Shown here piece after piece: positions 18,984-62,200 of a stretch of DNA of 64,000 bases. A model generated the notes under the pieces. It had not been told where the DNA came from. It saw only the letters and a list, made by a program, of their open reading frames with translations, and did not search any database. Source of the DNA: Apoderus coryli (taxonomy: Eukaryota; Arthropoda; Insecta; Coleoptera; Attelabidae); assembly GCA_911728435.2 (NCBI GenBank), contig OU452213.1, positions 4,567,834 through 4,631,833 of the forward strand, read 5' to 3'. The position numbers were made by a program, and so were the translations under genes. Each line of letters begins with the position of its first letter. Position 1 is the stretch's first letter.

Positions 18984-19319
18984 TTATTTCCTATTTACAA
19001 CAAATAGTAAAGTTGTTTTCTTGGAAACTTTCAGAAATAAGGGTTGTTGTTGGAACTGGCATATCTTTTTTTGTTCAGTTCTGGTGGAATTTTGCGTATC
19101 TAAAAAATGGTCTAAATGCCAGTAATTTCTGACATACTGTGCGACAAACGAATCTCTAACAGCGAAAGAAATTCGGACAAAAAAATACGATATTGCCAAA
19201 GACTACTACGAAAAATAATGATGAAGTTGTTAAGTTGTTTTATAATGTTTTTGATTTTCATAAGCACGTTTTATTTTTGGTTTTTATTTTTGGTGTGCAA
19301 TCTTTAGTTCATATTTAAA

Positions 19320-22932: not shown

Positions 22933-25900
22933 GTAAGTTGAGGTGTACACCCAATTATTCCTAATGCACTGCCACCAGAGAATTGGGACTAATGGGTCAC
23001 GCTTGGGTTTTTAGTTTTGTGATTGTAACGTTGTATTTTTATTGTAAGTTGAAAAAAGAGTCACTCTCCACGATTCAATGACGCATTAAATATAAAATTA
23101 AAAAACATCATGTTATTATAACTCAATAATTAGCTCTCTTGTGTAATAATTACGTTACTGATGATGGGAACAGGTATCCCGAAACATGTCTAACTAACAA
23201 TTTATGGTATTGATGCCTTATTAAAGTATCGTTTAATCGTGGAGAGTGACTCTTTTTTCAACTTACAATATACTGAACTCCACTCATAGTAATGGACTAT
23301 TTCCTAAAAATGTTGTATTTTTAATTTCAGTTTCTACCTGACAACATGAAAACACCATTTTGGAAGGGTGATCCCTGCCTTTCAGAAACACTGCCCGAAG
23401 TGGACTTGTTGATAAATGATTTCAAAATTTTCTGGCATCCACCAGAAAATGTGGAACAAACAAGGGGGCGAAAGATCGTTTTAACTGCAGTCGGATCAGG
23501 TACTACTTAAATTCAATTTTTAAAACTTTTTGCTTAGGAGAGCAGTTTCCTCAACAATGACTCTCGTGTTTTAGGTTCAGTTTGTAAAGAGCCATTCCAA
23601 CACACATGTATGCGCATTGGTCGCATACCCATGCTGTGCATCTCCGACCATTTGCTGTGTGATGGTCAACTGAACTGCCCAAAATCGTCCACCAACAGTG
23701 ATGAGGATCCGAAATTGTGCAAAATGGCTCGCAATGCGTGGGAGAACTTTGTGGTAGAGTTGTACAAAAAGTACAGACCACCAGTGCAGGATGGTCCATT
23801 TCGGTTGAATACTAATGATTCGAATGCAGCTGTAAAATGGCAGGACTGGCAACTTGTTCGGAAACATACAAGTAAGATTTTCAGACTATTTCAACCTCAT
23901 TGTTAAAATATACATGTCCTGTAATTTGGGATTTTTCAACAGAGACACCAAAACAAACTATATGTTTAGACAACAGCATAGTGTATTTCTCGTTCGTAAA
24001 TAAATAAATAAATAAAATATATATTTGTCAAAAAATTAAAAATAATTTGTCAACAAACAAAACATATAAAACATAAGAATAATAATTAATACACACAGGT
24101 ACATCGTCAAATAAATCAATTAAGATACTTAAAGTAAATTAATTAAGTAAATATTCTACAGTTCAATATATATACATACGAGTATATATACAAAACACAC
24201 AATACAAACTACTATCCAGTGTGTGAATCGCTCAAAAATTAATGCACATTAAAAAAGTCACCTACTGTATAAAAAGCTTTTTCTAACAAATACGTTTTTA
24301 TGGAATCGATGAAGGGATGATAGCAATTTGATTTCCATTGGCAGATGGTTGTGCATTTTTTTTCATTGTATAGGATCGAGCTTTTTATTAATGCGAGGAT
24401 GGGGCTGGCAGATAAAGATCATGTTCGGCGTTTCTAAGCAGATAGTTATGGAATGGTCTTTCAGAGAGCACACAATCTGCTAAGATTTGAAGTCATTTCC
24501 GAAAAATAGAGTACGCTGAAGTAAACACGGGTTCAGGGCATTCATAAAAAAAAAGGAACAACAATGGACTTAAGTTAGAACTTTGAGGTACACCTGACGT
24601 GGCCGAGTAAAAACAAGATTTTAAAACCGTTGTAAAAGTCATATTACTTCCGATCATGCAAGTATGAGTTGCATTAAGATATTAGGTCGGCAGGAAAACC
24701 ATCATGGATATGCAGTTTACTCAGTAATATGTCTTGGTCTATCTAGCCTATCGAAGACTTTGGTGAAATCTGTATCGATTACATCCAGTTGACCGCAGTG
24801 AACAAAAGTTACAGAGATACAGTGGGTAATAACTGACAGATGGGTGACAGTGGGCCGGCCACACATAAAACCATGCTGGTTAGGCGAAATCTGACAACGT
24901 ACAGCTGTATAAATCCAATCATATAAAATTGATTATTGCTCCAAATTAATTGAAAAAATTGCACAATAGAGAAGTTGGACGGTAATTATTAACATAAGAC
25001 TTTTCGCTGGATTTAAAGACAAAGCTAATATATTTATGGCCACTAAGGGTTTCGTAATCCATTACATGCCCTGATGAAACGTAGATGGCTAGATGTTCCG
25101 TTGTCATTCTGATATCTATAAAGGACACTGCCAGCTCACTCGATCTTGCTCCATCCTACTTTTTCCACCTGCAATCGAAGGTCTTTAAACACACCCTCAA
25201 ACCATTGTCACAGCAATTGCAGGACTACCACCTAATGGCAACCTTCGGAAATCGATTAATTAATTTTGTTTATTTATTTCAGCAATAGTTTACGAAGATA
25301 AGCAGAATGCAACAGAGACTATTTCCAGCATGTTGAATAAGTACGGTCCATGGGGTTATTTGATGTTAGGGCTGCTCATTTGCGGTACGGTATTATTCTT
25401 CTGTGGTTTGTGGGAATGCTGTTGTCGCCGGCCAAAACAAGATGTGGAAGCAGTGCCTGATGGTACACCTCAACCAGAAACTGTGTTTGTGATGGAGTGC
25501 GACGGTGGTAGCAGAACTAATGGGTAAATAATAGTTGCTTAGACATTGAGTAGAACTACCATTAAATAGAAAATCGTATATATTTATTAAATTACGAAAA
25601 TCCGCAACGGGCAAATGCCCGATTTGAGACCTAACAAGCTACAACTATCCAAATCAACAGCATAAAAATTTAAAGCTTTTTCGATATTATTATATAATAT
25701 ACAATTTAAATATTATTCTCCGATTATCGGCAGAGGATCTCTACTATAAAAGGCTAAAGACACACTAGGTAGTTTGTTTCAAATTATTAAAATCAAAATT
25801 AAGCTTACGTAAGATATTCCAACAGGTTTAATATTAGCCATAGACCCCGTGTCAACTTTCATCCATACTTCTTTTTGATTTATTAATACGTTTGCTACCC

Positions 25901-35252: not shown

Positions 35253-38200
35253 CTGTAAGTCAAATGAACAAGAAACATTATTATATGAACTACACACATA
35301 TTAGATCATTCAATAAGACACATTGATAGCGTTACCACAGTATAATAAATAATACAGTATTCTGACTTTCCACTAGCGAGCCGTCCTGCGCATATCGTCG
35401 CGCATGCCGCCATTATGGGTTAAAACGTCACAATAATCGCATTGACGTAGATAGATACTGTTCACTCCTGTGTTCAATATATAGTTCATTGTCGGCGTGT
35501 ACGATATAAATAAATATTGTGTTTGTAATCTAATTCTGTGTTTTTGGTATAGTGTTCGTGAGAATTAAAAGGATTTTATTTTTATTAACGTATCTTATGA
35601 TTAATACAATGAACAATCAGGGAGGACATGTGTGTGCTGCAAAATGTTGTCCCAATAAGCGGTACACTTGCTCTAAACATTTTTTTCGCTTCCCCACAGA
35701 TCCTGTTAGGTGAGTAATAAGTAAAAATAAAGATAATTTTACGTTTATAACAACTATTTGTATAACCGTAAAATTTATATTACGAAATGGCAGTATCTAA
35801 TATGTTTTTAACCTAAATGAAAGTAAAACATAAACACAAGTTGTCTCGTGGCGAGATAGCATGATAACGCAATCAGCTAGGGGTTATATTATTGACAATA
35901 TATATATGGCCCTTGTTTGACTAAAATTGCTGAGAACAGGATTCAGTTGATGCAGAATTCAGGCACACGGCTTGTATGTGGAATTCGTAGGGGTGAAAGA
36001 GGCTAGCACCTTACCTTAGAGTTGTAGGGAAAATAGCCATCATTATTGCTATTATGATATCATAAGCAATACTACAAAATGCTAGATTGATAGTTGCCAG
36101 TGTCACTGTTACTGTGGTATTTGGAGCAATGTATAGCAACGCCTCAGCTAAACTAGCTGCGAGCGTAAGGACAACTGAAATAAAAAAACTAAAATTATTA
36201 AATTTTGCCATAAAACTCCTCTGCGTCGCGTCGTCAGTTTGATAATTTTAAGTAAGTTTCTTGGATAAATACAATATTATTAGTGAGTCGCATCATGGTT
36301 TTCGAAAAGGATTTTCCGTAAATATAATAAATGAAAAATAATTTAATGGCAAAGCGGACTAAAATGCTGGTTTTACCTGCACAAGGAATTTTGTTTAATT
36401 TAGCAGGGCTCCAGTCTAATTCAATAGAACCAGACCGAGGCATGGGTCGACAGATACTGACGAATTCGTTTCGCTCTTGTTATGAGCTCGTCAGAGTACC
36501 ATAGTCGTTGCCCATCTACAAATATCGGCCTGCATTTAAGCACAATAGGATTCACAACAGTAGACACATGTAAACACGTATCATCTACATGTACATAGTA
36601 ATGCATATCCTATACCATGCAGGCCGATATTTGTAGATGGGCAACGACTATGGTACTCTGACGAGCTCATAACAAGAGCGAAATGAATTCGTCAGTATCT
36701 GTCGACCCATGCCTCGGTCTGGTTCTATTGAATTTGACTGGGGCCCTACTAAATTAAACAAAATTCCTTGTGTAGGTTAAACCAGCATTTTAGTCCGCTT
36801 TGCCATTAAATTATTTTTCATTGTATATTATATTTTTGCAAGTATAGATAACTGTGATTGTTTTGTATGTTAGTGTTTAGAACTTAGTTAAGTTATGACA
36901 ATTGTCTATACTATGTATATAGGAAATTGAGACAATAAAGAATTACATTACATTACATTACATTAAATTGCCAAATACCAACCGAAAAGCGGCTTACGTC
37001 CACAACAGTTGATCAGGGAACCAGCTACAGCGTACCCAACTATTTCCACTGAGGCTTGTATCATAGAATTTGAGTATACTGAAAAGTTGTTCTCGAGATT
37101 CTGAAAAAGGCAACATCACTATTAATCGTGAGGAGCGGCTCGTGCCCTAGTCTACGGAGGGGCTAATTTTGTTTGAAGGTTAGTACTAAATAAAAATCAT
37201 ATTGAAAAAATTCTAGTAACGCCATCTATATGTCATCATACGGTCTTATTGAATGACCTAATAGGTTAATTTTGTTGTAGTAACTAGTCGATTCAGTCTG
37301 TAGGTACCCGCGGGAAGCGAAACGACACTTTCAGTGATATTAGGTAAGTATCAGTTAGAAATTCCGTCAATTCTACGGCAATTTATTTGCAAATAATACA
37401 TTCCCGCATCATATTTGTTAACTGCAATCACCAGCTATCATTTAGCACAAAAAAAAAATATATAAAAACAGTCAAAAACCACACAAAAACTGTTTTTTAA
37501 ACACAAATAAAACAAAAACTTATATTGCAACACCGCTCCTGTTATAGCTATGTTGCCATATGTATATGATATATTATTATAAGGACTACGAACTGGGTCC
37601 TAATCCTAGCAGTGCTGCCAATGGCTATGATCTAAATTATGCGCACCGTCGGCGTCGTCCGTAATTATGCGATTCAATCCAACATTGTGCGATTTCTGAA
37701 AAAGTCTCTAAAATAACTAAAAAGATTTATGAAAAAGGTTCTAAAATAACAAAAAAAAATAACAAGAAATCTATCATATAAATTGTTCAATTCCATAGGT
37801 AGGGCCACAGTCTTCTTTAGAAAAACCATGATCAAGTGTATTTGGCAACGTTGAGTTCCAGTTCATTTGTTTGTGTTTACATTATTACATTGTAACACGC
37901 TGTCTAATAAAATCACTGCTTAATTAAAACAGTTTTTTTTATAAAACTGATAAAGTAAAGTGATTTGTTTGGACTCTTTAACCGGTGGGATACCTATAGC
38001 ACAGCATAATAAGTACAGCATTCCAAGTCCACGTTGGCACATTGAACTAAATAATTTCAAACTGTGACGTAGTCAGTCAGGTCCTGACTAAAAATAATTA
38101 TAGTTTTCGGTTTCTAACCACAGTACTGTATTTTTATTTTTGTAAAAATATTTAAGTACATAATAATATCGCTGTTAATTTCAGCAGTGCTTCCTAACTT

Positions 38201-41200
38201 AATCTAAATTTAACTTATATTTTAGCTTAAACCTATCTGAAAATTGTTTTACATCGCTGGCCACATTAAGTAGGTAGCTTATGTTTACAAATTAATGTTG
38301 AGTGTTTAGTGGCGTAATGACAGTTTTATGAGGAATATTCACATCATACACAGATCCCCGGAACTTCTAGTTCTAGTATGGCTTAAATAATTAATCCCAC
38401 AAAATCCGATACGATTTTTAAAGAATTGTCCATTTTATTTTGAACGACAATAATACATTCCCAAAAATATAATAATATACACTTACTACATTGCATATCA
38501 TAGTGTGACCATCTAATGTAGTAGTATTCTTCGTTTGAAATATTTCTAACATCGTACACAAATCACTTTCACTTCCATTATGTTGCACCTTGTAATCGTG
38601 TATTGACTGGAATATCTGTGGCAACCATAGTCGGACAACATCATTACTTAAAGATCAATATAAATATACTTAGTAGGAAATGTAACACCACTGCACCGGA
38701 CTACCGTTCAAAATAAACCTAACTTTCATTAAAGTACATCTTACCTAAACCTGACAGTTTTTTAAATATTTTAATTTTTATAAAAATATAGACATAATTT
38801 CAATGACAAAATTCACACCTATTCGTTTGTTCTTTTTAAGCCAGTCTAGGCTGATAAATAACCTACTCATCACTTGTTACGCCACATATAAAAAACTCCC
38901 AAAACTAAATGTCCAATAATATAAGTTCAATGAACGTAAAGTTTAATTCTAAATAACTTGTTTATTTCAAACGGAACACCCGGTATATGAGGTCAAAATT
39001 AGATGAACAAATTAATTATCTGGAATGGGCTTGTTTAACAAAACAAGACTTATATTCCGAGAGTTTGTCTGTCAACCACTATACTTTCACTAGACGGCCG
39101 GTTCGTCGATCCACGACTCATCAGTGGTGATCGGTCAGTAGTTGACAGCCAAACTCTCGTAAATAATGAAGTATATACAGAGATGTGAAAGGTCCTTTTA
39201 CATCTCTGTATCGTGTGGGGTATATACTTCATTATTTACGAGAGTTTGGCTGTCAACTACTGACCGATCCCCACTGATGAGTCGTGGAGCGACGAAACGG
39301 CCGTCTGCTGAAAGTATAGTGGTTGACAGACAAACTCTCGGAATATAAGTCTTGTTTTGTTAAACAAGCCCATTCCAAATATAGGCGGTCCCGCTTAAGG
39401 GAGTATCGGCGCGTCTATGTGTTGGTAGTTGCTTTATGGGGTCAGTGACCTCCCAGGCAGCCGATATAGGAACTGTTGTTCACTCGGCGTACTACCAACG
39501 AAAACTAGATGTCGCCAAACACATCCTTTTAATTAATTATCTGTCAAATATTATAATACTTTCCTATGGGTAACTCTTGACGTTTTCGTGGAAAATGCAC
39601 ATATTCATAATATTAGGCGAATTTTTAATTGAATCTCTACATGCACATTTGAATCCTTTTCTTAAGTCCTTCCAACCGTACTTATTCCAGTGGCGTAAAA
39701 AACGGTGAGAAAAACACCCACTACCTCTTCAAAATCTTCCCCAGATATGAATTTCGGAAGATTGCGAAATAGACTCTATGTCAATTTGATTAGAACTACT
39801 AAGATTCTTTCTGTGAAATTTCAAAGCAATTATGTGGAAAGACGAGTCATAATTTACAGCAGCCGGCTTTGTAATTTTATTGTTTTCAACGACATACATA
39901 AAGTTTTGTAACATTTTTGGTTTATATTTGATCGATGAGTCGATGAGTATAACCTTTGCTTTGGCGTTTTGCTAACGATGTTAGCATCCACGTCGAGATT
40001 ATAAATAAGTGGTTTAGTGAAGTTGTAGGTAATTATTAACGCCAGTGGCGAACTTAATAAAAATTATTGACAAAAAAAATGTACACCACTGACTGTAATT
40101 TCGATATTATCTTGAGATAAATCAACTAAAACTACTACTTTTTTAACTCATGTATTTTTTTTATATGTTGCTTGGTTTACTAGATAAAATTTTATTAATT
40201 AAAAACGCTTTCGAAACTGGATCACCCGGTATGTAAGTTTTTATTTAAAACCGAAAACCTTTACGTACCATAAATGCATCGCAGGTTCTACCAAACAGAC
40301 TAGAATTAATGATGACAAATATGTCTTTTGAAACAAAGGCGATATCTGTTTCCAACCAGTTCGAATATAGTTGACAAACGACTGCTCATCTTCGGCATTT
40401 ACTTCAAAATTTTCTTTTTCCTCAACCAACTTAAGAACCTGGAAACATTTAAAAATTTATTAAATTCATGTTAGAATCATATTGAAATGGCTGTAGTGAA
40501 TTTCCTTGTGAAGTACCTACTTAATTTGTGTGATTCCCCGTCCATGTCCCGATTTGTGGTTGCTGGATTAACGTGAGGTTCCTTGCCTCTCACGCTTCGC
40601 GATGCTTCATTAACGTGAATTCCGTTGTTTTTCGCGTTTCGTGCTTATCGATTTTCTTTCAAAACTCTTAAGACGAGTATTTAGCGCAGATATATAAAGT
40701 GTTATCTACTTACGGGATATGAACTTCCAGGCTTTCCGGTATTCATACTATATATTTTCCGAAAAATTTCCAAAGCCTTCTCATTTTGTCCAGCACTCAT
40801 TAAAAATTTGGGTGACTCCGGAAGGAAATAAAACACAACCGTACTTATTAGAGGTACCACACTGGAAACCAATATCATTAGGTTCCATTGCCTAAATTCT
40901 AAAATAAATTAGATACAAATCAAAACCTCGTAATTGGGTTACGAATAAAGTTACATTCTAGAATGAATTGCGACCTTTGTGTTTTCGAGGCAGGTCGAGA
41001 GCTCGCCTCGCAACTCTTTGTCGAATGACGGTTTATTGTCCAAGTAGGACTGAATGCAATGGTATAAAAAAGACACACCACCTAAGGACGAGTATCTATT
41101 TTATAATTAAAATTACAATTCTTAAGCACATCCCTTCATTTAATAAAATTCTGGTATGGCTACTAGATCGGTTTTTGCCTCCAAACTTATTCCACCCCAG

Positions 41201-44200
41201 ACGATTATCTCCAGATCTGGATACTCCTTGTACAGCAGCAGCGGCGAAGTATCGATCATTGGGACGTCTATACACACCACCCGGCCATCACAACCAGTGA
41301 GACGAAATCTTGATTTGTCTGTAAAAAGTACTGGTCTCCATGGCCGAAGTTCCCATCCCAAATGAACACGAACAAAGTTTAACCGCATAGTTTTACGATG
41401 TCGAGTTAAAGCAGGTTTTCGTCACGGTCTTCTTGGTTTTAAATCTGGTCAGAAATCATTATCTGATGCGCCATTCTCAGTGTATTTTGAAAGTCTTTTG
41501 CTGTCTCAGTCCAAGTGAATCTCGAATGCTATTTAAATTGTACACGGGTGCGATTACAAGCTTTCCGAGCGGCTTGTACCTCCAGGCTTTAATGAACCGA
41601 ATATCAAACTTTACTATTCTGCATTAAAATAAAACTAACTGACCTTTATGACCGTGGATCTAACTAACTAACTTAACACTCTTTATTGATTGAAAGAAAA
41701 CACCGCAGAAAACACTTTATAGATGACCCTTTTGTTTACTAAGATATCTAAAACTTTTACCAACTAGAAGTTTTACTTCAAATAAAACACAAGATTTGGG
41801 GCTTATCAATTGGGGCTTATCAAAACAATTAATTTAATTATAAATAATAAAAATGAATAATAATAAAAGAAATAAATATGTATAAATTAAAAAAGAATAT
41901 AACATTAAATGAAAATCAAGAAAGAAACTCTTATTATGTGAAACTGTACAACTTGAAATAGGTAACTTAATATAATATCGAATAATTATATTGATTTCCG
42001 CACAAAACTTTCATTATAATTGTAATATTGTAATAAAACGGACGGGCAATGGAATTTACTGTTGTCCGGCCCTGTGGTTATGGCTGAGTTTTATGGTTTA
42101 TATTAGTTTGGGAATTTTATTTAAGTAGATTGTATACAAATGTTCTAAACTCAGTCATAAAATGTAAGGGTATATTTTCTATTTATCTTATCTTCCATTG
42201 ATATGCGTTTTACAACATCTACAAGTAATACAAGTATTATTTTTGTCTAAAGGAATTGTAGGTACCAAAAAAAACAACAATTTTTTCTTATTCGAAGAAT
42301 GACAAATTGGAAATACCGGGTCTAAACACTCAAAACCATCGATAGATCTTCATGCAAATTAAATGTCGAGCATTTTTTATTATATACAAAAAGCTATTTG
42401 GAAAGCGTCACGGTTTCCCATATCAAAATAATATATATAATGAGCACATAAAAAATTATGGGTTTTTGTCCAGTCGCGAAATCCAAACTTAAGAATCTTT
42501 ATTAAAGTCGACATAGGGGAAAGGTGTACGAGTTGATCCCCTTAAGGGAAAATAATTATATAATTAAAAGTATCCATCATACCCAAGTCGGCCAAATATG
42601 TGCTATTAGCAAATTCATTTGTCTTACTATTTTCATGTTCAAAACATCGACTTTAGTAATGTTTCATAATTTTATTTCAATTTTTTAACAAGCTTAATAA
42701 AGGATCATCTTGGACACCGGGGTCTCCAAGATGATCCCTATAGTATGGACAAGATGATCCATAGGATCATCTTATCTAAACTACTAAGAAATCACTAGAT
42801 TTCAGTAGAGAATTCAAAAAATAAAATCAAAAAATCTTCATTTATTTATTTTATGTATGTGAATAAAAAAAAATACTTTATAATTATCTCCGTTTTTTTT
42901 CCTGGAGTAACTGTGCACAAATCACAGGTGAACTCTTCGTCATCGCTTTCTATCCCGGCACAAGCCTCATGACCTTATTTTTTACAAACAGTACATTGTA
43001 TCCAGCCTTCTCCTTTATTACCTTTGGAATAAGTTTCGGTACAGAATAAGCATTCTGTGTCGTCTTCTGACGAAGTTGACTCTTCAACATATGCGATCTT
43101 TTTTTTATTTGAAATTCCTTTCCCAATTCCCTTTTCAAGATGATCATCTGTTACATCAACAGAAGAATCATCTTGCCCCAAATACAATTATGTTCTATTT
43201 TGTTCTGTAACTTAACCTATAAGCTTTGTACTTTTATTCTGCCGACTAAAATACTTAATTGACTACTATTACAAGCCAACAATACAATAAAATTTGCACT
43301 TAAGGTTTTGCAAGGTAACCTACCGTGTTTTAAAATCAGCGTCCGCATAGATCAACAACACATATTTTTTATTTTCTTACATAAAATTATGCGTGTTGAA
43401 TGTGCAGCTACTACACATCGACTAAATGCGTTCTGGTGTTGGCAAATACATATTACGGAAGAAATCCATTAGATGGCATATGTAGTTTATCCAAAATTGA
43501 AAAGGATCATCTTACCTCAACGAATCATCTCGTACACCTTTCCCCTACAAATAAAAATGTATCTTATTTTGTAATGTTCTCACCCTGTAAATGTATTTGG
43601 CTATATATTGTAAAATGCTTTTTTTTTCAACTTTTTACTTCTTCAGCCTTATTCTAAGCTTCCTTAGCAACTTCTGTAAGTCGCGCTTTAACATCTATTA
43701 GCTTTAACCTTACTTTCTTTAACTTTGGCTTGCTTTTTTACTACTTTTTACTTTCTTTAAACTTCTTTCAGAGGATAGAAACTTAGGTCTGCTATATCTA
43801 TTTCCGAAGTTAAAACAAATTAACATATTTAGTTTAACTTTATACAATTTTGAAAACACTTCTTTACTCGATCAAGGCTAGAACCATTCTGATCTCAAAG
43901 TCCTTTTTCCTGTCCAGAATTGCCTCATAAAAGTTACATTAGGTAATACAAAATGAAAATAAACCAATCAGAAAAAAAAGCATTTTACAATATATACCCA
44001 AATACATTTACAGGGTGAGAACATTACAAAATAAGATACATTTTTATTTGTATGTCGACTTTAATAAAGATTCTTAAGTTTGGATTTCGCGACTGGACAA
44101 AAACCCATAATTTTTTAAGTGCCCATTATATATATTATTTTGATATGGGAAACCGTGACGCTTTCCAAATAGCTTTTTGTATATAATAAAAAATGTTCGA

Positions 44201-47200
44201 CATTTAATTTGCATGAAGATCTATCGATGGTTTTGAATGTATATAACACCCGCTAATTACAAAAGGTTACAATCTGACAATTAAATATAAATATAAAACT
44301 GCAATAAGGGTAAAATATGATCTCGTAACTCCAATAAAAGACTTTCACTCAGCTAGAAAAAAAAACCGCCCAAGATTCATAACCCCATTATGATTCAAAA
44401 ATTGGGAGGCAATAAAAAGCCTTGTAGTTAATATCGCACTTCGTCGAATATTACAACTAATTCCTTAATTTATAAGTGTATCGACAATGTTAAGGAAGGC
44501 AGCCCTATAACGAAAATAATTCCTTCCTTGAACAAAGAAACAACACAGCAACACATGGTTGTATTTCACTATCTCTGCATTTATATTTCTAAAACCCATC
44601 AAAATAAACATGCATTTTAGGATTTTAGGAGCCTTAGGTAGTAAGTTTTATTACTTTTGAGGACTACCAGAGAACAACTAAGGGAGAGAATATAAAGTCT
44701 GGTGGGCGCGGCTAGTTTGCGCACCTGATTCGCGCAGAGGGATTTGATGACGTACTGAGTTTAGACAGAGGCGCCACACGCAATTTAGTCTAGTTAAGTG
44801 TTGCAAGCGAACGGATATTCAGTGGCAGCGTTAATTTGAGATTTTCGATTGCAAATGAGATATTGTGTGATTGCGATATTTACATTCTTATCGTTTTTCC
44901 GTTAACATAAATAAAGCTAAGTGTGGCGTAGTGTGTTCAGCGAAAGGCTGTGCGAACAAGAGTTAATAATAATAATAATAATGATCTTTATTTCAAATTT
45001 ATGTCAGTACATAAAGTGAAATCACGTCAAAATAAGTACTACAACTACACTAATATCAAAAGAAAAAGAAAAGTACACACCCAAGGAAAATATTATGCAG
45101 TTTGACATTGTATTCAAATATTCAGATAAACAATATGGTTCTAAATGTAGTAAATATGTTTTGATTTCTCTTTTATATATTTTAGACACTTTAATGTTTT
45201 TTATCCTAGGCGGTAAATTATTGTATAATTTTATGCACATATCAGGTGCATTATTATCAAAAACGTTTAAACGATGTATTGGATATGTTCCGTCAACTGT
45301 TCTTGTGTTATATTCGTGAATTTCAGATGGGTTATCAAATTTATCTCTATTATTACTAAAGAATACTAAGCATTCGTAAATATATAACGCAGTTACAGTC
45401 ATTAGTTTTTCTGACCGGAATACCCCTCTACACGATTGTAAATAAGACATATTATTTATTATTCTAATACATCGTTTTTGAACCACAAACATATTTTGCA
45501 CATTACTGTCTCTACCCCAAAAAACAATGTCATATTTTAAACGAGACTCAAAGTTTGCATGGTATAAAATTTTTAATATTTCTTTATTCAGATACCGAGC
45601 TACAACTCTTAAAGCATAACACACAGAATTCAATTTATTTGTTAGAGAATTTATATGATTCGCCCAGTCTAAAAATTCATTAATTAAAACTCCCAAAAAT
45701 TTCGTTTGTGAACCAAGCGCTATTTCAGTATCTGAATCAAGTTTCACTTCATTTGGCTTTGCAAGTTTATTTTGTTTTGTTCTGAATAATATGGCATTAG
45801 TCTTTTCTGAATTAATTATTAATTTGTTTGCCGTACACCATTGCGCGAGATTAACATAAAAACTTCTTAGGTCAAACAGCAGTTGGTCTATATTCTGACC
45901 TCCTATGAGAGCATTTGTGTCATCAGCATAATTCACCAATGCTATATTTTGTCTTTGATTAATATAATGTATGTCGTTAAAATAGATTAGAAAAAGAATT
46001 GGTCCGAGAATACTTCCCTGTGCAACACCGAAATTATTTATTTTCATCTCCGAACAAGCTGTTTTTCCATCCTTTGCTACTTTCACCATTTGATATCTGT
46101 TAGTCAGATACGATTCTATCCACTTTAAAGAGTTTCCGCGCACATCGTATAAGTCTAGTTTCTTAAGCAATAAAGATCTGTCTAGGCTATCATAAGCTTT
46201 AGACAAATCTATAAATAAACCTATTGAAATGTCGGATTTTTCAAAATTTCTCAAAATATTATTCAAAAACTCAAAAATAGCAGTTTTCGTGGATTTTCCC
46301 TTCAAGTAACCATGTTGCTGCGGATGAAGCAAATTACAGTCAGTTATAACTGTAACTTATCGTTTTTCACGTTTCCAAAAGATCAAGCAAGGTAAGTTTT
46401 GTTTCGATTAACTTATTGTATTGTATTTTTATAGTTATGTGGTATATTGTCTTATTTTTGAAATGGAATTTCTCCTGTAACCTTATATTATGCGTAGTTG
46501 TATGTTATGGTATAATACCCAGTGTTTTATGTTCTATAGAGCTGAAATTTGGATGGTTGATTCGGACCGTGAAGATCTTGAAGCTAGTAAAAATTTGAGT
46601 AGCTACAGATTGTGTGCTGCGCATTTTAAAGACAGGATTAAGTAATTTTGGTGCATTAATGATGCCAGATCCTGATTTTGTTTTATATACATCCCGTTTG
46701 GAAGTTATATTTCAAACTAATTTTGAAAATGTGTGTACCTACACAAACAAATATTTTGAAAAAACTTATTTGCCTTAGTAAAGATATTGCATATGTACAC
46801 CCATGTTCAGAATTTCCTACACTTATATCGTAAGTTTGTATTTCAGAATAAGGTTATTTTATACGCTAAAAATTAGTGTACCAACAAAAAACCTTAAGTA
46901 CCGACCTGCATTATTATTTCAACAAAATTTAAATACGACCCTGTTTTCTACTCTTTCAACATGGCGGCCACAGGCTGACTGAGATCAAAGGCGGCAAGAC
47001 AGAGATTATATTCTCTCCCTTAGTTGTTCTCTGGTACTACCCCACGTAATATTATTACGAAATATACCAGTGGCGTGTATTGTTGTATTTTGTTACACAA
47101 CTACAAACTGGCATACCGTTGCCCGGTGACGCTCGCTAAGCCTGCCGCGACATAAAACCTAAATGTGAATCTTTTCATAATCACTTTGTTTTTTGTACTT

Positions 47201-49263: not shown

Positions 49264-51415
49264 CTTTATGTTCAGTTCACTGTCGTTGTTGGGAACACGA
49301 GGGTTGTACAAAAGCGTAACTTCTGGAAGGCGGATTATGTATCAATAAATGATTATTTGTCCCGCAGTTTGCAAGATACTGATGACATCGAAATATGTCT
49401 CGGAGCTATTCAAGAGGCTATCCAGAAGTACGTACCAGTCTGCCCCCGCAGGGTAAACACGCAGAAGCCGTGGATCAACGGAAATATTTTCGGAGAAATA
49501 CAAAGGAAGAGGAGACTCTGGCACAAGTACAGACGGTTGAGAACGGACGCGAGCTATTTGTTATATAGGCAGCAAAACAATAAACTAAAGACAATGATAT
49601 CGGAGGCTAGATGTCGGTATGAAAGTGAAATGGCGGCGAGTAGCAATAAGAAACAATAACTGGGCCAATTGACATAGCCAATGCATTCGCTAACCAGTTC
49701 AGTAGTGTTTTTACCGACGACTCGAGGGACAATTTACCTGTATTACCCCAGTCTACCAGAAACAGGCAGTCATTAACAACCGTTAATTTTATAACCGCCG
49801 ATATAAAGGAGGCAGTAGCGGGTTTGAAGCAAGACTCGAGTCCTGGCCCGGACGAAATTCCTCCGATGTTTCTTCAGAGATGCATTGAATCATTATTACG
49901 ACCATTGGCCACGTCAATGCAAAAATGCATCAACATGGGCACTCTACCGGAGGAATGGTTGTCTGCTGTCGTGATACCTATATTTAAAAAGGGTGACAAG
50001 TTCGCTGCAGAAAATTATCGACCTAGTTTGACCTGCGCACTTTGTAAATGCATGGAGAAAGTCATTACCAGAAATATGACTTCATTTCTAGTTGAATCAA
50101 ATATTATTCCCAATGAACAACATGGGTTTGTGCCCAAGAGGTCGGTGGAGTCGAATCTTCTGGAGTGCCTCAATGTGTGGACCAGCCATAATGATGTTGG
50201 TCAGCCTACGGATGTGTTGTATCTGGATTTTGAGAAAGCATTCGACAGAGTGCCATTTGCTCGTTTGTTGCTGAAATTGGAGCATTACGGCGTGCGGGGG
50301 GCACTCCTGAGATAGATTGAGATGTTTCTTACAAAAAGAATTTTCCAGGTTAGAGCGAATGGTGCATTATCCGCTAAATTGCCGGTCTTGAGTGGTGTCC
50401 CGCAGGGGTCTGTACTGGGGCCATTGCTTTTTCTGGCATATATATCAGACTTAACAAGAACCATCACGTCAAACATGAGCTTCTTTGCTGATGACACCAA
50501 ATTGTTTTGTAACCCACTGCGAGACGATAATGAGTTCCAGATCGACATTGATGGGGTAGTGTCTTGGTCGACGGTTTGGTGGATGAACTTGAATTTGGAG
50601 AAGTGCCAGGTACTACACATCGGAGCTAATAATCCTAGGACTCCATATTTCATCAATGGAAATGCCGTTAAATCTGTAAATCAGCAGAAGGATCTTGGTG
50701 TCATAGTAACAGCGGATTTGAAGTGGGAGGCCCATATTTCCGCCACAGTGAAGAAAGCTAATAGACTGATGTGGTATCTGATACAGAAGGCTTTCAAATC
50801 GAGATCAAACTCTCTAATATTGCAATTGTATAAATTGTATGTCAGACCACTATTGGAATATGCCAACAGCGTTTGGTCCCCCTACTTCATTAAGGACATA
50901 GAGGCATTGGAAAGGGTTCAGAGGAGATTCACTAAGCTACCTCATGCACTTAGCCATATACCATATGAGGAGCGATTGAGGCTTTTAAATTTGACATGTC
51001 TTTATGATCGACGACAACGAGGCGATCTAATTCAAACATACAAGATACTTAGTGGCTACTACTCGGTGGATCTCGATGTATTTCATCCTGCTAGAAATCC
51101 TAATCTGCGTGGCAATAGTAAGAAACTTGACAAGGAGAGATGTGCTAGACTTCCTCGGAAGAATTTTATAACAAACAGAGTTGTATATGCATGGAATTCA
51201 TTACCTGAAGAGGTGATAATGGCGCAAACGGTTGACAGCTTTAAGAACAGGCTGGACAATTTCATGGAGGACCATGGCGATCAGTTGGTCCACTACTCGC
51301 TATAGAAGATTAGTGAGGATGACATCAATATTTCAAAAACCTCAAATTAGGAACTGAGCAACAGTTTCATCGGTTTTACCGTTTACTGTTTTACGACTAA
51401 TAATAATAATAATTC
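49264..51415 (+). pseudogene. CR1-like LINE, nearly complete RT, one stop
   Basis: It begins in the linker (RNFWKADYVSINDYL) and contains KPWINGNIFGEIQRKRRLW, then SSPGPDEIPPMFLQ, GFVPKRSVESNLLE, LYLDFEKAFDRVPF, SGVPQGSVLGPLLFLAYISDL, the catalytic FFADDTKLF and a full C-terminal domain (SLPEEVIMAQTVDSFKNRLD). A short UTR and a (TAA)n tail follow at 51401-51414. Defects are a frame break near 49658 and a TAG at 50312 (between FEKAFD and VPQG). The endonuclease is missing. Confidence 0.92.
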
Positions 51416-51884: not shown

Positions 51885-52075
51885 AGGGTGTGCGGAAATG
51901 ACGTGTACAACGAGGTAAAAATTAGATGCACAAAGTAATTATCTGTCAAATATTATAATACTTTCCTATGAATAACTCTTGACGTTTTCGTGGAAAATTC
52001 ATAATATTGGGCGAATTTTTAATTGAATCTCTTAGTTTCATGTAGACCACCCTGTATTTGATGAAGCAAAAATTA
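51885..52075 (+). repeat. Partial copy of the 38.7-kb repeat (empty-site paralogue)
   Basis: The stretch from GTAATTATCTGTCAAATATT through CTCTTGACGTTTTCGTGGAAA to TTTTTAATTGAATCTC matches 39531-39640, and the bases before it match 38995-39022 without interruption. It therefore shows the state before cassette 2 inserted. Confidence 0.8.
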
Positions 52076-52682: not shown

Positions 52683-54585
52683 TGTAACCATTTTGAAATT
52701 AGCGGGTATTATGTACATTCAGTAAGAATACTAATTTTATAGCTCAAACCAAATGAATCCCAATATGCTATTCAAATTGTTACGGTTCGATTCAAGTTTT
52801 ACGAGCGGTTTTAAATAAAGAAGAACAAACAAAGAATATCAACTTGAATAATAACAGAATCAAATTATTAAATGAAAGAAACAAACAACTAAAATAAGCT
52901 TTATTAATCTGTATTAAAGTTATGCAAAATTACTCACCTTTATAATTCTGGATCACTTTGTATTTAAAAGAAAATATTTAATTGGTCGACGCTTCTGTCA
53001 ATAATTTATCGAAAACTTTATTAGAAATAAAACGCAAAGGTCTGGGCTAAAAACACTTAATTTAATAATTAAAACTAATAAAGAAAATTAATAACAACAA
53101 AGAAATAAATATGTATAAATTAAAAAAAAAAGAATAAAACAATTAAGCGATAATGAAAATTTAGAAGAAAATCTTAGTTAGTACTTGTACAACTTAAAAA
53201 TAGGAAAATTAATATAATCACGAATAATATTAATTCCTATACGAAACTTTAATCACAATTGAAAACTGAATTTATTTCAATTACTAAAAGAAATAACGTT
53301 AAACTTTATAAAAAAGAACTGATTAAAACAAAAAGGCCTTCAATTAAAAGATTTAACAAAACATACGGAACTTTATACAATTCACTACTTCAGAATAAAA
53401 TGAAATGGACTTAATCTTTAAACAAAAACTAGAAAATAATTCTTAACTGAAAATCTACTAAGTCCAAAAACAAATTAAAATATTTAATTTAACTTTATAT
53501 AATTAAATGAGGGAATTAATAATACTCTGTCTCCTCCACTAAACTTCAATATATATTTTCATAAATCTGGTCGTACTCTAATTATCATTGGGGTTCTTAC
53601 AACATACATGTTTCGGTCATATATATGGCCATCCTCAGTGTTATACAAACGTTACATTGTCATACAATTTTGAAGCTGTAATAAATTGGTATTGTTAACA
53701 TTATATAATTTTCTTATTATTCGTGACTTACTTTACTGAAATAAAATAAAAAAATTTTTCTTTAAAAAATCCTACATTCTTAAAACTAACTCAACTAAAA
53801 GAACATATAATTAGAAAAACACATCTTGACTGAACTAAGGCTAGAACGGATCTAATCTTAAAACCCTATTGCCTTTCCAAAATTCCTCATAAAAATCACA
53901 TAGTAGGTACTACAGAATGAAAACAGCCAATCAGAAAAAAGGCATATACCCCAATACAGGTACATCTACAGGGTGAGAAGATTCACAAACTAAGATACAT
54001 TTTTATTTGTATGTCGACTTTAATAAAGGTTCTTGATACTTAGGTATCTTATGTTGGAGTTCGTTCAAAAGATTAACCAGTCACTACCATTTGTAAAGCA
54101 AGAAACAATACGATTTTATAATGTCTTCTCAAACTCCCGAATCAGCAACTGGACAAAAACCCATTGTTTTTTTATGCGCCCATTATATATATTATTTGAT
54201 ATGGAAAACCGTGACACCCTCCAACTAGCTTTTGTATATAATAATAAGAGTTCGACAAGATGTTTTGATGGATCAAAAGTGAGACCACTCAATAATTGAA
54301 ACATCTGGTTATCTTTTCTAATATATGCTTTTATCTTTGGGCTCACTCATAAACATAAACTCTATATTCTCGATAAGTTTAAAAAAGTCGTTCTTTTAGG
54401 TACCTAACAGTTCCTTTAGGAATATTTGTAAAAAGCCCCAAGATAATATTTGTATTACTTGCAGATGTTGTATAATGTTGACGAAAGATTGTATTTGTAG
54501 ACAGATTGGTAGAAAACTATAAAACTATGAGACACATACAACCCAGACCCAAATACAGGGTAGGACAAAAGTAAATTCCATTGCC
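52683..54585 (+). repeat. Longest complete-looking copy of family R (1.9 kb)
   Basis: It runs from TGTAACCATTTTGAAATTAG to ACAGGGTAGGACAAAAGTAA, the two ends joined directly in the short copy at 21871-22322. It is AT-rich, without a conserved open frame. A hammerhead motif lies inside at 53598-53645 on the minus strand, in a stretch (about 53510-53700) not shared with the other copies, so it may be a nested insertion. Confidence 0.65.
53598..53645 (-). ncRNA. Minimal hammerhead ribozyme motif
   Basis: Minus strand: stem I TATAACA paired over 7 bp (one G-U) with TGTTGTA, core CTGAGGA, one extra T, stem II GG...CC extended by CATATATATG, core GAAA (53611-53614), minimal palindromic stem III ACATGT, triplet GTA. 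The perfect complementarity of stem I across the motif is strong evidence that this is not chance. Confidence 0.65.
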
Positions 54586-54719
54586 CGTGCGTCTTATTAC
54601 AAAATGTGCCTAGAGTCCAATCATTTGGAACATTTATTATAAAATTTATCAATATTTATGTGTATGTTGTTATTTAATTTAAGTTAAAAATGTATTTATT
54701 TAATATGTTATTGTGTTAA

Positions 54720-55105
54720 AATTCGCCTAATATTATTTTCCACGAAAACGTCAAAAGTTATCCATAGGAAAGTATTGTAGTATTTGATAGATAATTACTT
54801 TGTGCATCTAATTTTGGCCTCATATACCGGGTGTTGCATTTAAAATAAACAAGTTATTTAGAATTAAACTTCACGTTCATATCACTAATATTATTGTACA
54901 CTCTGTATTTAGTATTGGGTGATATTTGGCGTAACAAGTGATGCGTGGGTATATTTATCAGCCCAGACTGGCTTAAAAAGAACAAATGACTAGGTGTGAA
55001 TTTTTTCATTCAAATTATGTCTATATTTTTATAAATATTTAAAAAACTGTCAGGTTTAGGTGAGATGTACTTTATTGAAAGTTAGGTTTATTTTAAATGA
55101 AAAAT
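54720..55105 (-). repeat. Second copy of the 38.7-kb repeat, inverted
   Basis: Its reverse complement aligns with 38708-39022 and 39531-39600, including ACCTGACAGTTTTTTAAATA and the AATTATCTATCAAATAC site, with no cassette inserted. Confidence 0.8.
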
Positions 55106-55632: not shown

Positions 55633-57543
55633 GTACGTAAATACTCATACATCGGACATCTTCTATCATGGACAAGATATCTCGTCTCCAAAAGACTGCA
55701 CAGGGTGTCCAGATTTCGTTGTAATTGCAGAGTAGCTCCGTTATTGTAAAAGTTAGCGGGATGTCGTTTTCGCAACATGTTATGCTACTTTTTTGTGAAC
55801 CTCACGAGGTGGATCCGAAAAATCACTTTTCGGATCCACCTCCTATCTCGGGAACTATAAGAGATATTTTTCTTCTCAGTTTTGACCCATAATTGATCAA
55901 ATTATTTTGTAAGCGTGCAAACTTTCTCTTGATCATTGGTTGTATATCAAGATACATTTCATTAAATTTTCTGCATGTTCTTTCTATAATTTTCCTACAT
56001 TGGCCATGAATAATAAACAGGTTCATTAAAACTTCATTCGAGTAACCGTTTTCTTCCACTTTACTTATTTTTTACTTATTTGCATTAAGAAACAACAAAC
56101 GTTTCATTACTTTTGTGGTAAATGTCAAAATAATATAATTACATAATTATTTAATGACAAATTTATAGCTATTTAGTAAAACTTAATAAAAATAAATAAA
56201 AACCATATTATATTTCAAATAAAATAAATTTTAAGTAGGCTTGTGTCTTATTGAAAACAATTAATGTCAAATAACAGATTATTGATACTGTCATTTACTA
56301 ATGTATTTGTCAAATGATAATTATTGTCAGCTTAACAGTTTATTACGGAACTGAAATTTTGAAAAATTTGATATGTTGCAATGCTTTATTCAATGTAATA
56401 ATGATGCTAATGCTGCATCTGAAACATATTTGGAAGGTTAAAAGAAAACCTTATTAATTATGGATCATTTACACAACCAAGACCTAAAACTTATAATTGC
56501 GCAAACATTAAAACCAAATTGACTCACCCTGTATACATAAATATACTCAAAACAACGACGCGACACGCACGCCCCCGATCCGCGACGGTCTCGGACTGAA
56601 ACACGACGAATTGTCCCTAATGGGCACGTGCACCACAGCAAAGTGTATTTCTCGTTCGTAACAAACGTTGTGTGTTGTATGCTTATATACCAGGTACGCT
56701 CAAAATATTTTGATCATTTTCAGACAAATTTAAATCTTGACTAACTAAAATTAATTTTAAAAGCATTTTTTTATTATACGGGGTGTTGTACATAATCTTT
56801 TCGGTCGATTGAATCCAAAAATATAAGTATTTATGTACAGTTTTATGTAACTTATAAAGCTTGAACTCTACTGATATAAACTGTGTCCGAGATAAGAATG
56901 AGATAGCAATGGAATCTTGGAAACGGTGGGAGTTTCAATGTCGGTTAAATTAGAGTAAAGTTCTACAATTTAAATACCTTTTAAATGGTGTTTCCAAAAT
57001 TAAACTTTAGCCGTTTTCGAGAATTTTTGAAAAAACGAATTTTTGCGATTTTAGTTTTTATTTATTTCTGCCATTATATTAACAGATATATTTTTAGCTG
57101 TTATTTAAGTTTATTCAAGAAAAATCGCCATAACTAGTTCATAATTATCGAAAAGAGTAAAAAAATAAATTATAAAATATTTGTGGAATAATTAGATTGG
57201 GGCTCTGCCAGTTACAATAAATAAATAACATCCCCTGTATAGGTAAAGCCAGTACTTTGTCCGATATGCAACAAAATTATTTATATATGAATCACAAATG
57301 TTGTTTTTGACAGATGACGTTGCCAAACCCCCTCGGAACATTTTAAAACAATTGAGAGATTTCCTACACAACATTGCTCAGCAAACCAAACAAACTGGAA
57401 CGAAGACCCTAAATCTTGCCAAGAAAGGTCTAGTTAAATCTGCCTGCGTAATTTACCAAAAAATGGGAGTTTCAAAATCCCAAAAGATGGAAGAAATATG
57501 TAACAAAATAAATCAACCTACTAGCACAAATGCTAACTCCTAA
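55554..57543 (+). CDS. Small secreted protein of unknown function (two exons, gene span)
   Basis: Exons 55554-55632 and 57314-57543 join in phase and encode 102 residues. The first 23 form a clear signal peptide (MRNSTT, hydrophobic core ILITVFALFVAI, then NYVQA-APA). The mature part is about 79 residues, basic and helical-looking (ILKQLRDFLHNIAQQTK, LNLAKKGLVKSACVIYQKMG), with only two cysteines and an Asn/Thr-rich end. No known family was recognised. Size and composition would suit a haemolymph, salivary or defence peptide, but that is a guess. The intron carries transposon debris. Confidence 0.7.
55806..55842. repeat. Perfect 15-bp inverted repeat
   Basis: AGGTGGATCCGAAAA and TTTTCGGATCCACCT flank about 5 bases. 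It sits at the edge of the transposon fragment that follows. Confidence 0.7.
55823..56059 (-). pseudogene. DUF4817-like transposon protein fragment
   Basis: The minus strand reads VEENGYSNEVLMNLFIIHGQCRKIIERTCRKFNEMYLDIQPMIKRKFARLQNNL, the helix-turn-helix found at the N-terminus of certain insect transposon proteins. It lies in the intron of the small secreted protein gene. No downstream catalytic domain was found. Confidence 0.6.
56060..57313. other. Intron DNA of the small secreted protein gene
   Basis: Apart from repeat ends ('caccctgtata' at 56525; 'tacggggtgttgtacat' at 56778) nothing is recognised. Confidence 0.5.
57314..57543 (+). CDS. Small secreted protein, exon 2 (mature peptide)
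   Basis: The acceptor is 'ttttgacag'; the exon starts DDVAKPPRN and ends TNANS-TAA. The two Cys (SACVIY, EEICNK) could form one disulfide. No repeat or transmembrane segment is seen. Confidence 0.75.
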
Positions 57544-58192: not shown

Positions 58193-58232
58193 CAACGACG
58201 TTTCGTTACTAATTAGTAACTTCTTCAGGTTG
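58193..58232 (-). ncRNA. Minimal hammerhead ribozyme motif
   Basis: Minus strand: stem I CAAC/GTTG, core CTGAAGA (58222-58228), one extra A, perfect 5-bp stem II GTTAC/GTAAC (loop TAATTA), core GAAA (58201-58204), then CGTC, a two-pair stem III with cleavage triplet GTC. Both helices are fully complementary. As with the other minimal motifs, stem III alone is too short, so dimer action would be expected. Confidence 0.6.
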
Positions 58233-58834: not shown

Positions 58835-58877
58835 GCCAAACGTGTTTCGGAACTTTTACTGTTCCATCTTCAGTGGC
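58835..58877 (-). ncRNA. Minimal hammerhead ribozyme motif
   Basis: Minus strand: stem I GCCA/TGGC, core CTGAAGA (58867-58873), one extra T, perfect 5-bp stem II GGAAC/GTTCC (loop AGTAAAA), core GAAA (58845-58848), a tiny stem III (AC-AC-GT) and triplet GTT. Stem I closes exactly at the expected place. Confidence 0.6.
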
Positions 58878-59276: not shown

Positions 59277-62200
59277 GTAAGTCCCCATAAAGGTTAGGTT
59301 AAGTTAATATCGTATAGCCAAAGCCACATTGGTAGGATGGTGAATCTCATCTGCTCACTCAGGTGCTCCTGTCACAGTCTGAAGAAAAACTTGATCTTTT
59401 TTTTTGTTTTGGCAAATCTCAATGGACACCAATGGTTTACTTCGCCGAAGTTGGACAGAAGACCCCATTCTTTCCTGTTGCGTAAAAATGTATAACTTTT
59501 GCTTTTTTCCACTCTTTCAAATATCAACCAATCAAATTGTCTATTCCTGGCGTCCGTCGTACCGCTTTTGTGGAAAAATATAAATCAGCAAATTTAGTCT
59601 ATCTTGTAGATACAATGTTGATGTTAGAGTGATGAACGTTTATAAATTATTAATAAGCGAAAAATACTTAGTTCGGCTGGATGCAATATTTTTATTACCA
59701 TATATCGGGTATGAAAGTTTGGTTGTTCTGTAAGCTAAACTTCTTACTTGAAACGTCGACCAAGTAAATGTTTTTACGTGGTCGACGTTTCACGATGGTG
59801 GACAGGATAGTTGAGGAAGAGCGAGAAAGATAACTGGGTTGAAGCTTTCAAGCTGGAGAAGCTTCGGTCACAAAAGTGTATTGATGTAGGTTTCGAACAT
59901 AAATAAACTCATTTTCCTAAAAAAAGACTTGTAGTTTTCTTGTATTTCAAACTATATAGTTTTTACTCTTATTTTGGACATGTAGAATTTTGAATTCACC
60001 ATTAAAACTATGGCGTTCTTCCAACAGATGTTTGGCATAAGTGGGATTTCCTTTTTCTTCTTTGTTGAATGAGTCATGATGTTCCTTAAGTCGTATTTTA
60101 AAGCTTCGTCCCATTTGTCTTATATACAGGGTTACTTGTAAGTAGACCTGAATATTTTAGGACGTGATAGCAGGCGTCATAAGAAGCCAATTTGACTATG
60201 TAGTGCCCTATTCCAAAGTGGACCCTTTTCAAGCTATTCGAATTTTTAAGATTTTTTGGGAAAGTGTCACCTTGAAGTCGAGTATTTATAATATTTTTTT
60301 AATTTAATCTCGTTTTGAAGATTTTTTGGTAGTTTTTTGTTCAACTTAATTAACAGTAAAATTTAAAGTACCAGAAATCTGGTAATATTAGCGACACTTT
60401 TATTTAAATCGACCGTTTGTCAAAAATATTTCAGTAACATTTTTTGTGCAGATTATTTAACATCTACAAGTTTTTAGCTATCCAAAAAAATAAAATAGTT
60501 GGCTTATCTGTGTATGATCTTTTGGTAAATTCGATAGCAAAGCACTGAAGTAGTCAAATGCCGATTAACACTATTTCAATGTTTACCACTGTGGTGATTT
60601 AAAGCGAAACAAATTCCACTGTGTTTTTATGTGTGTATAATAAATTTTGTGAGAATTATTTAAAACGTTTCATCTCCCGCCATTTTTACCGCCGGTCAAA
60701 GAGTCCAAACAAATCACTTTGTTTTATTAACAAACATTTTATCCGGTATTTTTGTAACTTACACAAGGCTGTGATAGTGTAATGTAGAAAATAAAAATGA
60801 AAATTGCTGTTATATAATGAACACACCTCGTATCATATTTAGATTGCCTGCATTATTTACAGTAATGTTATATTTGCAGGTTGGTGCTTGTTATATAATT
60901 CTTACATCGACAGTTGCCTATAATAACCAGGAAGCTCGAATCAAAATTGATACGAATTACTTAGACTTTAATACACGATTACCAGCTATTTTCTTGTGTG
61001 AACACAGGGAAATTGGTACAAAACTGCACAACGAAGCTAGAATAAGGTATTTTATTTTTCTTATCTTACATTGCGAGCCAATAATTTAGGTCACTTTTGA
61101 AAAAAATAGTATATTGTATTTCTAGGCGGTAAAGTGTAATTTTTTCAGGCTGAAAGAAAAATTGACACTTCTTGAAGCCTGAAAAAATCACTTTACCGCC
61201 ATGGTTTACACATTATATTTCTGCCGGCACCGTACAATTGTGGGTAATGCAAAAAAAGAAAAGAAAATAAAAACATTAAACGTTCTAAATAATAATAATA
61301 ATAATATTTATTGCCCAACAGAATAATCCCTCTACAGAGCAATATAACATATATATACATAAAAAAATATAAAACTCTAATAATTAATAGAAATTACAAA
61401 TGTCAAACAAAAAACAACTCACTGCTAGATAACGCTTTCTTGTAATGTGACTAATGATTTAACAAAGTTCGCAAGAAAAAAAGCTCACAATTCAAAGGCA
61501 GCCTGAGTATTATTATTAACTATATAAACTATAACTAATTAAACAAACTTAATCTGTACTGTTTGTTATATTTATGTTAAAAATGGGACTTTGAATTGTA
61601 CAATAAGTACGTGATTTATTAAGATATCGTCTTATTATCCACATGATCTATCATCATAATTGTGAGTTCAATACTTCTACAAGCACCGGCCACTCCTATA
61701 ATCAATACTACCTAAAATTATAATTTTGAAGAGTAAAATTATTATATAATGACAATTTGTCATTAAATGTATTTCATCCGGTGCAGTTTCAAGGAATTTT
61801 TCAATATCCCGTTGGTCAAAAATTTGTTACTTTTAGCAATGTGGCCAACAGATTTCTTCTTTACAAGGGCAGTCACTTTTGTGAAATTTCTAATGTTTAC
61901 GTTATTTTTAACAGTTTATACTGAAGTTAATATTTGGTTCTTGATTTTTCCGGCAGCAAACTCATCGAAACTTCGTTCGCTTTCTCATGAATTTCAGGCA
62001 GGGTACAATAGTCAATTTCCTCATCACTACGATCAATCAGATATTCCATGATTATTATATTGGGTCTGCCAGATAACTTTTTTTTTTTTGAAAATGCTAT
62101 AAAAGAAAAACAGCTGAATATTTTCTCAAATTTATTTTTTTATTTGAAAGTACAATCCTTCCGGTTAATAATGACAAATAATTTCATTCAAATGGCTGTC

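Follow-up and report, generated by a model that had tools for sequence, protein, structure and literature searches.

Within the analysed window, a stretch of 64,000 nucleotides of the Apoderus coryli genome (contig OU452213.1), positions 39023-39530 hold an insertion of 508 bp that interrupts a dispersed repeat. The insertion is bounded by two exact copies of the 13-bp target-site duplication AATTAATTATCTG (39010-39022 and 39531-39543), for which a chance of about 6e-8 per site pair was calculated from the base composition. The left (38707-39022, +) and right (39531-39638, +) parts of the interrupted repeat align with two paralogues that read straight through the junction, namely 54718-55097 on the reverse strand (86% identity to the left flank and 81% to the right) and 51912-52032 on the forward strand (91% and 89%, respectively). 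The target word occurs once in each aligned paralogue, with two letter differences in the former and one in the latter. An ORF scan of the element revealed no frame over 60 aa, the longest having 60 aa. A preliminary description of this DNA, made from its letters, had proposed a non-coding insertion of 508 bp with exact outer boundaries and a 13-bp duplication, which splits a dispersed repeat with uninterrupted copies elsewhere; all these points were borne out, including the homology of the flanking repeat across the junction, on which that description had made its reading depend.

Two inverted arms (39023-39178 and 39220-39376; 5 mismatches over 157 positions) are joined through an 18-bp hairpin (39175-39211), at which two cDNAs appear to meet head-to-head. 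The first arm, a short cDNA, is sense on the reverse strand and borders the left duplication with its 3' end (site A), i.e. the left end of the element is the A end read on the reverse strand. On the forward strand, 39193-39530 represents one full family unit (the tandem period of 331 plus 7 repeated letters) and ends at site B (ATCCTTTT); the 154-nt 'tail' (39377-39530, +) is the part of this unit that lies between sites A (39376) and B (39530). We had first taken these 154 nucleotides for a 3' tail, a view overturned by the genome copies described below. The arm-hairpin-arm-tail layout of the preliminary description stands with respect to the inverted arms, the hairpin and the 154 nucleotides, but its second hammerhead is broken and its 'tail' is the remainder of the 331-bp unit. 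Inverted termini at both ends, as in foldback or TIR-type DNA transposons, were not observed (the first 25 letters agree with the last 25, when these are reversed, at 12 of 25 positions), the outer ends of the insertion being A and B. The 3' ends, ...CCATTCC and ...ATCCTTTT, are neither A-rich nor composed of simple repeats, as would be expected for LINEs and SINEs, and with no frame over 60 aa the element has no ORF with the reverse transcriptase and GIY-YIG domains that mark Penelope-like elements. No ordered pair of Pol III boxes was found in 39023-39530, and a tRNA scan of the whole window and a tandem-repeat scan of 38000-41000 detected nothing.

Every core letter of the type I hammerhead is present in the forward arm on comparison with the Rfam model. 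The motif extends over 39236-39343 (+), with outer stem I strands of 26 nt and a core at 39274-39305, and its predicted cut at 39305/39306 agrees with the position proposed in the preliminary description. In the hammerhead of the first arm (39074-39124, -), the cut of which would fall at 39093/39092, GAAC stands in place of the required GAAA, so that one of the two arms is intact in this copy. Helix III in this family consists of a C-G pair and a GGCC tetraloop after GAAA. The two motifs scored 25.6 and 19.5 bits with the Rfam hammerhead model, against a gathering score of 48.5, and no match at gathering level was obtained in an Rfam scan of the whole window. Furthermore, when folding energies were calculated without tertiary contacts, enforcing the hammerhead came at a cost of 6-11 kcal/mol relative to the free ensemble in each of the four arms that the two hammerhead elements of the window contain. 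These low scores and the predicted cost of folding would count against ribozyme activity. As expected of a retrozyme with a conserved type I core, 71 of the 78 family units have an intact core; across its 12 positions the minor-letter frequency averages 0.010, compared with 0.011-0.034 in six other regions of the 78 units, and it is therefore hardly more conserved than the adjacent sequence. All five arm mismatches of the reported copy lie inside the ribozyme (39270-39308; p 0.012), which we left as chance; in the same interval both arms differ from the family majority.

A search of the source assembly (428 Mb, 129 contigs) with the 508 bp gave 195 matches, 40 of the 1340 candidates being scored, and 40 loci grouped from the matches listed were fetched with their flanks (L011 duplicated L010 and was dropped). 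Many copies match positions 171-508 alone and repeat every 331 bp, and it is this spacing that defines the family unit and identifies 39193-39530 as one unit with seven letters more. At least one head-to-tail join of 331-bp units, a size within the range of about 170-400 bp known for tandem retrozyme units, was found in 36 of the 40 loci, the exceptions being the reported copy, L006, L007 and L008. The 'inverted retrozyme' that the preliminary description had put forward as a mobile unit of its own, unlike the tandem form, is not supported in view of these joins; a mobile, non-coding, retrotransposed hammerhead element with target duplication is retained, and the 508 bp as its unit is not. Low GC content and long duplications are likewise features of the 331-bp family, which is non-autonomous, non-coding and of retrozyme type.

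Head-to-head inversions were present in 32 of the 40 loci, a sample ranked by likeness to the reported copy and thus favouring inversions. At 28 of these 32 loci, one outer end is A (approximately 184; raw 182-193) and the other is B (raw 338), in unit coordinates that place the hammerhead cut at 113, so that site A lies 71 nt and site B 225 nt past the cut. None of the 32 has A/A or B/B ends; four (L009, L015, L023 and L034) have another end on at least one side. Exact duplications of 9-14 bp flank 25 of the 28 A/B loci (all but L019, L039 and L043), and from them positions of 181-189 for A and 337-345 for B are derived. Pairing the two flanks of the same locus gave duplications of at least 11 bp in 24 of 28 cases, and pairing mismatched flanks as a control gave them in 2 of 756; for duplications of at least 8 bp the figures were 25 of 28 and 57 of 756. 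The remaining eight loci (L024, L028, L031, L032, L033, L035, L036 and L044) are of single orientation; L033 and L035 have duplications, and a candidate in L031 lay inside the element and was not counted. An inverted unit of fixed build, as previously supposed, is not supported, since the inner junction of the inversion changes between loci; different boundaries in other copies, named beforehand as an argument against that reading, were found at the inner boundary and not at the two outer ones.

As the first 40 loci had been ranked by likeness to the reported copy, a second sample was taken with the tail alone as the query (47 matches, 40 of 1478 candidates scored), and ten places outside the first set were read. 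Five of the ten are A/B head-to-head loci with duplications of 11-13 bp (L081, L082, L083, L088 and L089), L090 is a single piece that ends at B and is flanked by a 14-bp duplication, and L084-L087 are single pieces or have ends that could not be assigned. No A/A or B/B insert was seen among these ten loci, in a search that favours B ends and under-samples A/A inserts. With respect to the target, the A+T content is 86% in the duplications and 70% in the flanks. Reading inward, position -3 holds A at 21 of 25 sites from one side (p 4.5e-7) and at 20 of 25 from the mirror side (p 4.1e-6), the position having been picked after viewing the first side. The same kind of site is therefore met on both strands, as expected if one enzyme cuts both.

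A second head-to-head hammerhead element is located at 36318-36835, with two intact cores, which start at 36494 (-) and 36658 (+). It has no significant similarity to the first element by BLAST (best E 0.49), its Rfam scores are also below the gathering level, and no target duplication was found around it. One exact A-box-like word occurs on each of its strands, an observation of which no use was made. The adjoining 36836-36965 was first taken as a LINE-derived tail; it is flank, since the other listed copies, all of which lack it, end at query position 518. The search with 36318-36965 gave 137 matches (40 of 1485 candidates scored), and 22 of about 40 loci were read. Tandem copies of this family are spaced 489 bp apart, and cores were intact in 33 of 40 motifs within four substitutions. 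Nine of the 22 loci have exact duplications of 8-15 bp (L046, L054, L055, L056, L064, L070, L072, L073 and L075), although those of L046 and L064 measure just 8 and 9 bp, a length also seen in 57 of 756 mismatched flank pairs of the first family. All nine are head-to-head and have one end at 85-89 and the other at 116-126, which leaves a 'tail' of approximately 30 nt. The other 13 loci, the window element included, have no exact duplication; in the raw alignment four of them look A/B, two have like ends (L051 and L053), six have other ends and one is single. The word ATCCTTTTA at the B end is common to both hammerhead families (P 0.0018, noticed before it was tested). A 92-nt relative (about 70%) of the second-family arm downstream of the ribozyme, itself without ribozyme, is present at 57190-57282.

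Autonomous Penelope elements of the same genome were sought with the GIY-YIG profile (PF01541), which gave 150 scored matches of 1260 candidates, all above the cut-off. Among those scored, neighbours within 5 kb are head-to-head with their endonuclease ends outward in 18 of 18 cases. L080, the single Penelope element read end to end (the others being counted by their endonuclease matches), contains two head-to-head frames (774 and 718 aa), both of which encode RVT_1 and GIY-YIG domains, in arms that are 99.2% alike, and is flanked by a 13-bp duplication. Its outer ends follow the hammerhead cut at distances of 50 and 83 nt, so that a tail of 33 nt is present on one side only. Each arm has a hammerhead motif with a helix III made of a C-G pair and a palindromic tetraloop (GCGC), as in the first family, and helix III, which the minimal hammerhead of Penelope-like elements lacks, can consequently not separate the 331-bp family from Penelope in the Apoderus genome. 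The insertion signature of Penelope elements, i.e. inverted head-to-head copies, a tail on one side and a duplication, is found in the hammerhead insertions, with L080 as an example within the genome. ATCCTTTTA was also seen downstream of GIY-YIG matches, on their strand, at L076:2655 and L077:2985, and a hammerhead-like core at position 2262 of L077; judging from these words, L076 and L077 might possibly belong to a helper family for the hammerhead units.

Motifs of the pattern CTGANGATGG...CCGAAACAYGT, taken for a putative minimal Penelope-type hammerhead, occur in the window at 23158 (+), 53638 (-) and 58873 (-) and in none of 100 shuffles, a comparison of three with zero that is not blind, the pattern having been composed after the motifs were seen. 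The motif at 53638 belongs to a 299-bp insertion (53506-53804, -) with a 9-bp duplication (TAATTATAT on the reverse strand) and empty-site paralogues at about 43812-43938 and 5976-6278; TAATTAT is common to its duplication and that of the first element (P 0.003 against the window background). The motif at 23158 is situated in a 231-bp stretch (23040-23270) with inverted ends of 50 nt (90%), around which no convincing duplication was found. Hammerhead-like cores without recognisable element boundaries were seen at 58845-58873 and 58201-58228 (-). A hammerhead descriptor, likewise composed after the motifs had been seen and hence not blind, gave 7 matches in the window against 0.02 per shuffle, of which a match at 4620 is not claimed.

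In addition, the window includes three RVT_1 frames, LINE-like by eye, at 45025-46356 (-), 49650-51302 (+) and 12456-14161 (-), the first of which has insect proteins as the named relatives among the matches listed. PDB sequence searches with two reverse transcriptases returned nothing. A transposase-like frame at 8115-8995 (-) matches DDE_3 at 8115-8540 and, just below the cut-off, a helix-turn-helix at 8570-8995, and another at 62168-62854 (-) is mariner-like by eye and has no Pfam match. Inverted arms of 166 nt, 98% alike and with no hammerhead match, form a foldback of another kind at 18513-18984. Patterns of two hammerheads and a LINE-like 3' end were found at 0, 0 and 0 places in viral contigs; the pattern search of genome contigs gave three bacterial records, which is near chance by a rough estimate.

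Animal non-LTR retrozymes have been described as non-coding units of 170-400 bp with type I hammerheads, tandem copies, a GC content under 50% and duplications of more than 4 bp (Cervera and de la Pena 2020, PMC7229834), and the 331-bp family is like them in unit size, hammerhead type, tandem copies, low GC and duplications. Head-to-head inversions with two fixed outer ends, on the other hand, are a feature of the 331-bp family and not of the animal retrozymes as described there, and the word 'inverted' is absent from the main text of that paper. Penelope elements are named there as a strong candidate mobiliser of animal retrozymes, on the basis of shared hammerheads, tandem copies and co-occurrence. 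The reported layout has a precedent in the Penelope families of Adineta vaga, in which inverted pLTRs, one with an optional 31-bp tail, an empty site and, in several copies, duplications of 8-10 bp have been reported (PMC3846280), with self-priming favoured by the authors. In vitro, the protein of Poseidon, a hammerhead-carrying Penelope element of Anolis, is able to cut both strands of its target and to extend them; it uses two internal start sites that account for the 'tail', and its targets are A/T-rich (PMC11167929). These elements and the 331-bp family are thus alike in the head-to-head arrangement, the one-sided tail and the A/T-rich targets; unlike them, the hammerhead families have no ORF, and their tails measure about 150 nt in the first family and 30 in the second. 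Furthermore, one strand appears to start at A and the other at B in the 331-bp family, in contrast to the Anolis protein, which showed no strand difference in its start site (PMC11167929).

Based on the A/B ends, the duplications, the symmetric target, the tandem units, the intact ribozymes, the build of L080 and the 18 endonuclease pairs, we think it rather likely that the insertion is a copy of a retrozyme-type family that was inserted by Penelope-type proteins, i.e. a GIY-YIG endonuclease with a reverse transcriptase. The mirror-image layout is best read as a product of insertion, and is probably the mark of a Penelope-type enzyme copying RNA into both cut strands. The unit RNA would be transcribed and then cut by its own hammerhead, and the Penelope protein would nick an A/T-rich target in both of its strands, at symmetric positions that are for the most part separated by 11-14 bp. 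Reverse transcription would be primed within the RNA by each of the nicked strands, by one of them at site A and by its partner at site B. The cDNAs may stop anywhere, after covering between part of a turn and about three turns of a circular or tandem RNA template, and joining of the two free cDNA heads would then produce an inverted, head-to-head insert whose two 3' ends face outward and which is flanked by a target duplication. For the reported copy, this would imply an A cDNA of about 170 nt and a B cDNA with the length of one full unit. We infer the enzyme, the form of the RNA (its transcription, circles and cleavage) and the order of the steps; the ends, duplications, target symmetry and tandem units are observed.

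The inverted arrangement might also arise by snap-back, in which a single cDNA folds at a palindrome and copies itself into an inverted arm. This was the mechanism that we first assumed, it accords with the 18-bp hairpin at the head junction of the reported copy, and the rotifer study reads junction palindromes in the same way (PMC3846280). Equal head positions are predicted by it, and the unit positions of the heads do differ by no more than 10 nt at 4 of 28 loci (1.8 expected if independent) and by no more than 40 nt at 10 (6.9 expected); however, they are more than 10 nt apart at 24 and more than 40 nt apart at 18, and since near-equal positions are confined to few loci, the junction hairpin of the reported copy is the less common case. 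Nor does snap-back explain why the outer end of the copied arm is fixed at A. The ends and junctions of the genome copies overturned this assumption, and we now consider it quite unlikely. An inverted element of 508 bp that is heritable and moves as such, the reading of the preliminary description, would accord with L006, L007 and L008, the inserts of which measure 496-528 bp and have their heads near the same place. Nevertheless, these three loci come from a list ranked by likeness to the reported copy, the junctions vary elsewhere, and the full-length RNA is predicted to fold into a hairpin of -352 kcal/mol that would hide the ribozyme; we find this reading scarcely credible.

Alternatively, a LINE protein might insert the RNA, with the second target strand priming internally. 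In LINE-1 twin priming, both target strands prime on one RNA, which results in an inversion, and the second priming point varies. The 331-bp family shares the inversion but has a fixed second priming site, a symmetric target and no poly-A or simple-repeat 3' end, and its layout is shared with GIY-YIG elements; the sequence next to the second element that resembles a LINE 3' end is the flank mentioned above. The duplications of 11-14 bp are LINE-like, reverse transcriptases of LINE type are present in the window, and 15-bp duplications have been noted for anemone retrozymes (PMC4918200); on balance, we regard insertion by a LINE protein as unlikely. The copies might, finally, be inverted pLTR pairs left by a deleted autonomous Penelope family with a similar hammerhead, given that the ends, the layout and the short helix III are all as in L080. 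This appears very improbable in view of the head-to-tail 331-bp joins in 36 of 40 loci, which leave no coding space, and of neighbouring pieces that are at most 27 nt apart, except for one far piece in L039.

Insertion of retrozyme-type units by Penelope-type proteins thus remains the reading that we prefer. The 331-bp family adds a new member to the retrozymes, but the novelty lies in the integration signature by which this family and the second one are tied to Penelope elements, and in the pattern of one A and one B end; no title or opening abstract that we found reports inverted retrozymes or obligatory two-site priming, which does not establish their absence from print. As a more general proposal, to which we give an even chance, Penelope-type integration would be a two-primer, two-site reaction at a symmetric cut, with obligatory priming at A on one strand and at B on the other, and animal retrozymes would be satellites that depend on it and have retained nothing but the ribozyme and the two start sites. 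If this is true, a head-to-head inversion with a one-sided tail would be its normal product. For Penelope integration, the many junctions favour two-strand priming, at RNA sites of which there are two and which are fixed, rather than self-priming. The two hammerhead families, which show no sequence similarity to each other, have the same end structure as an autonomous Penelope element of that genome, and the finding bears on which machinery mobilises animal retrozymes.
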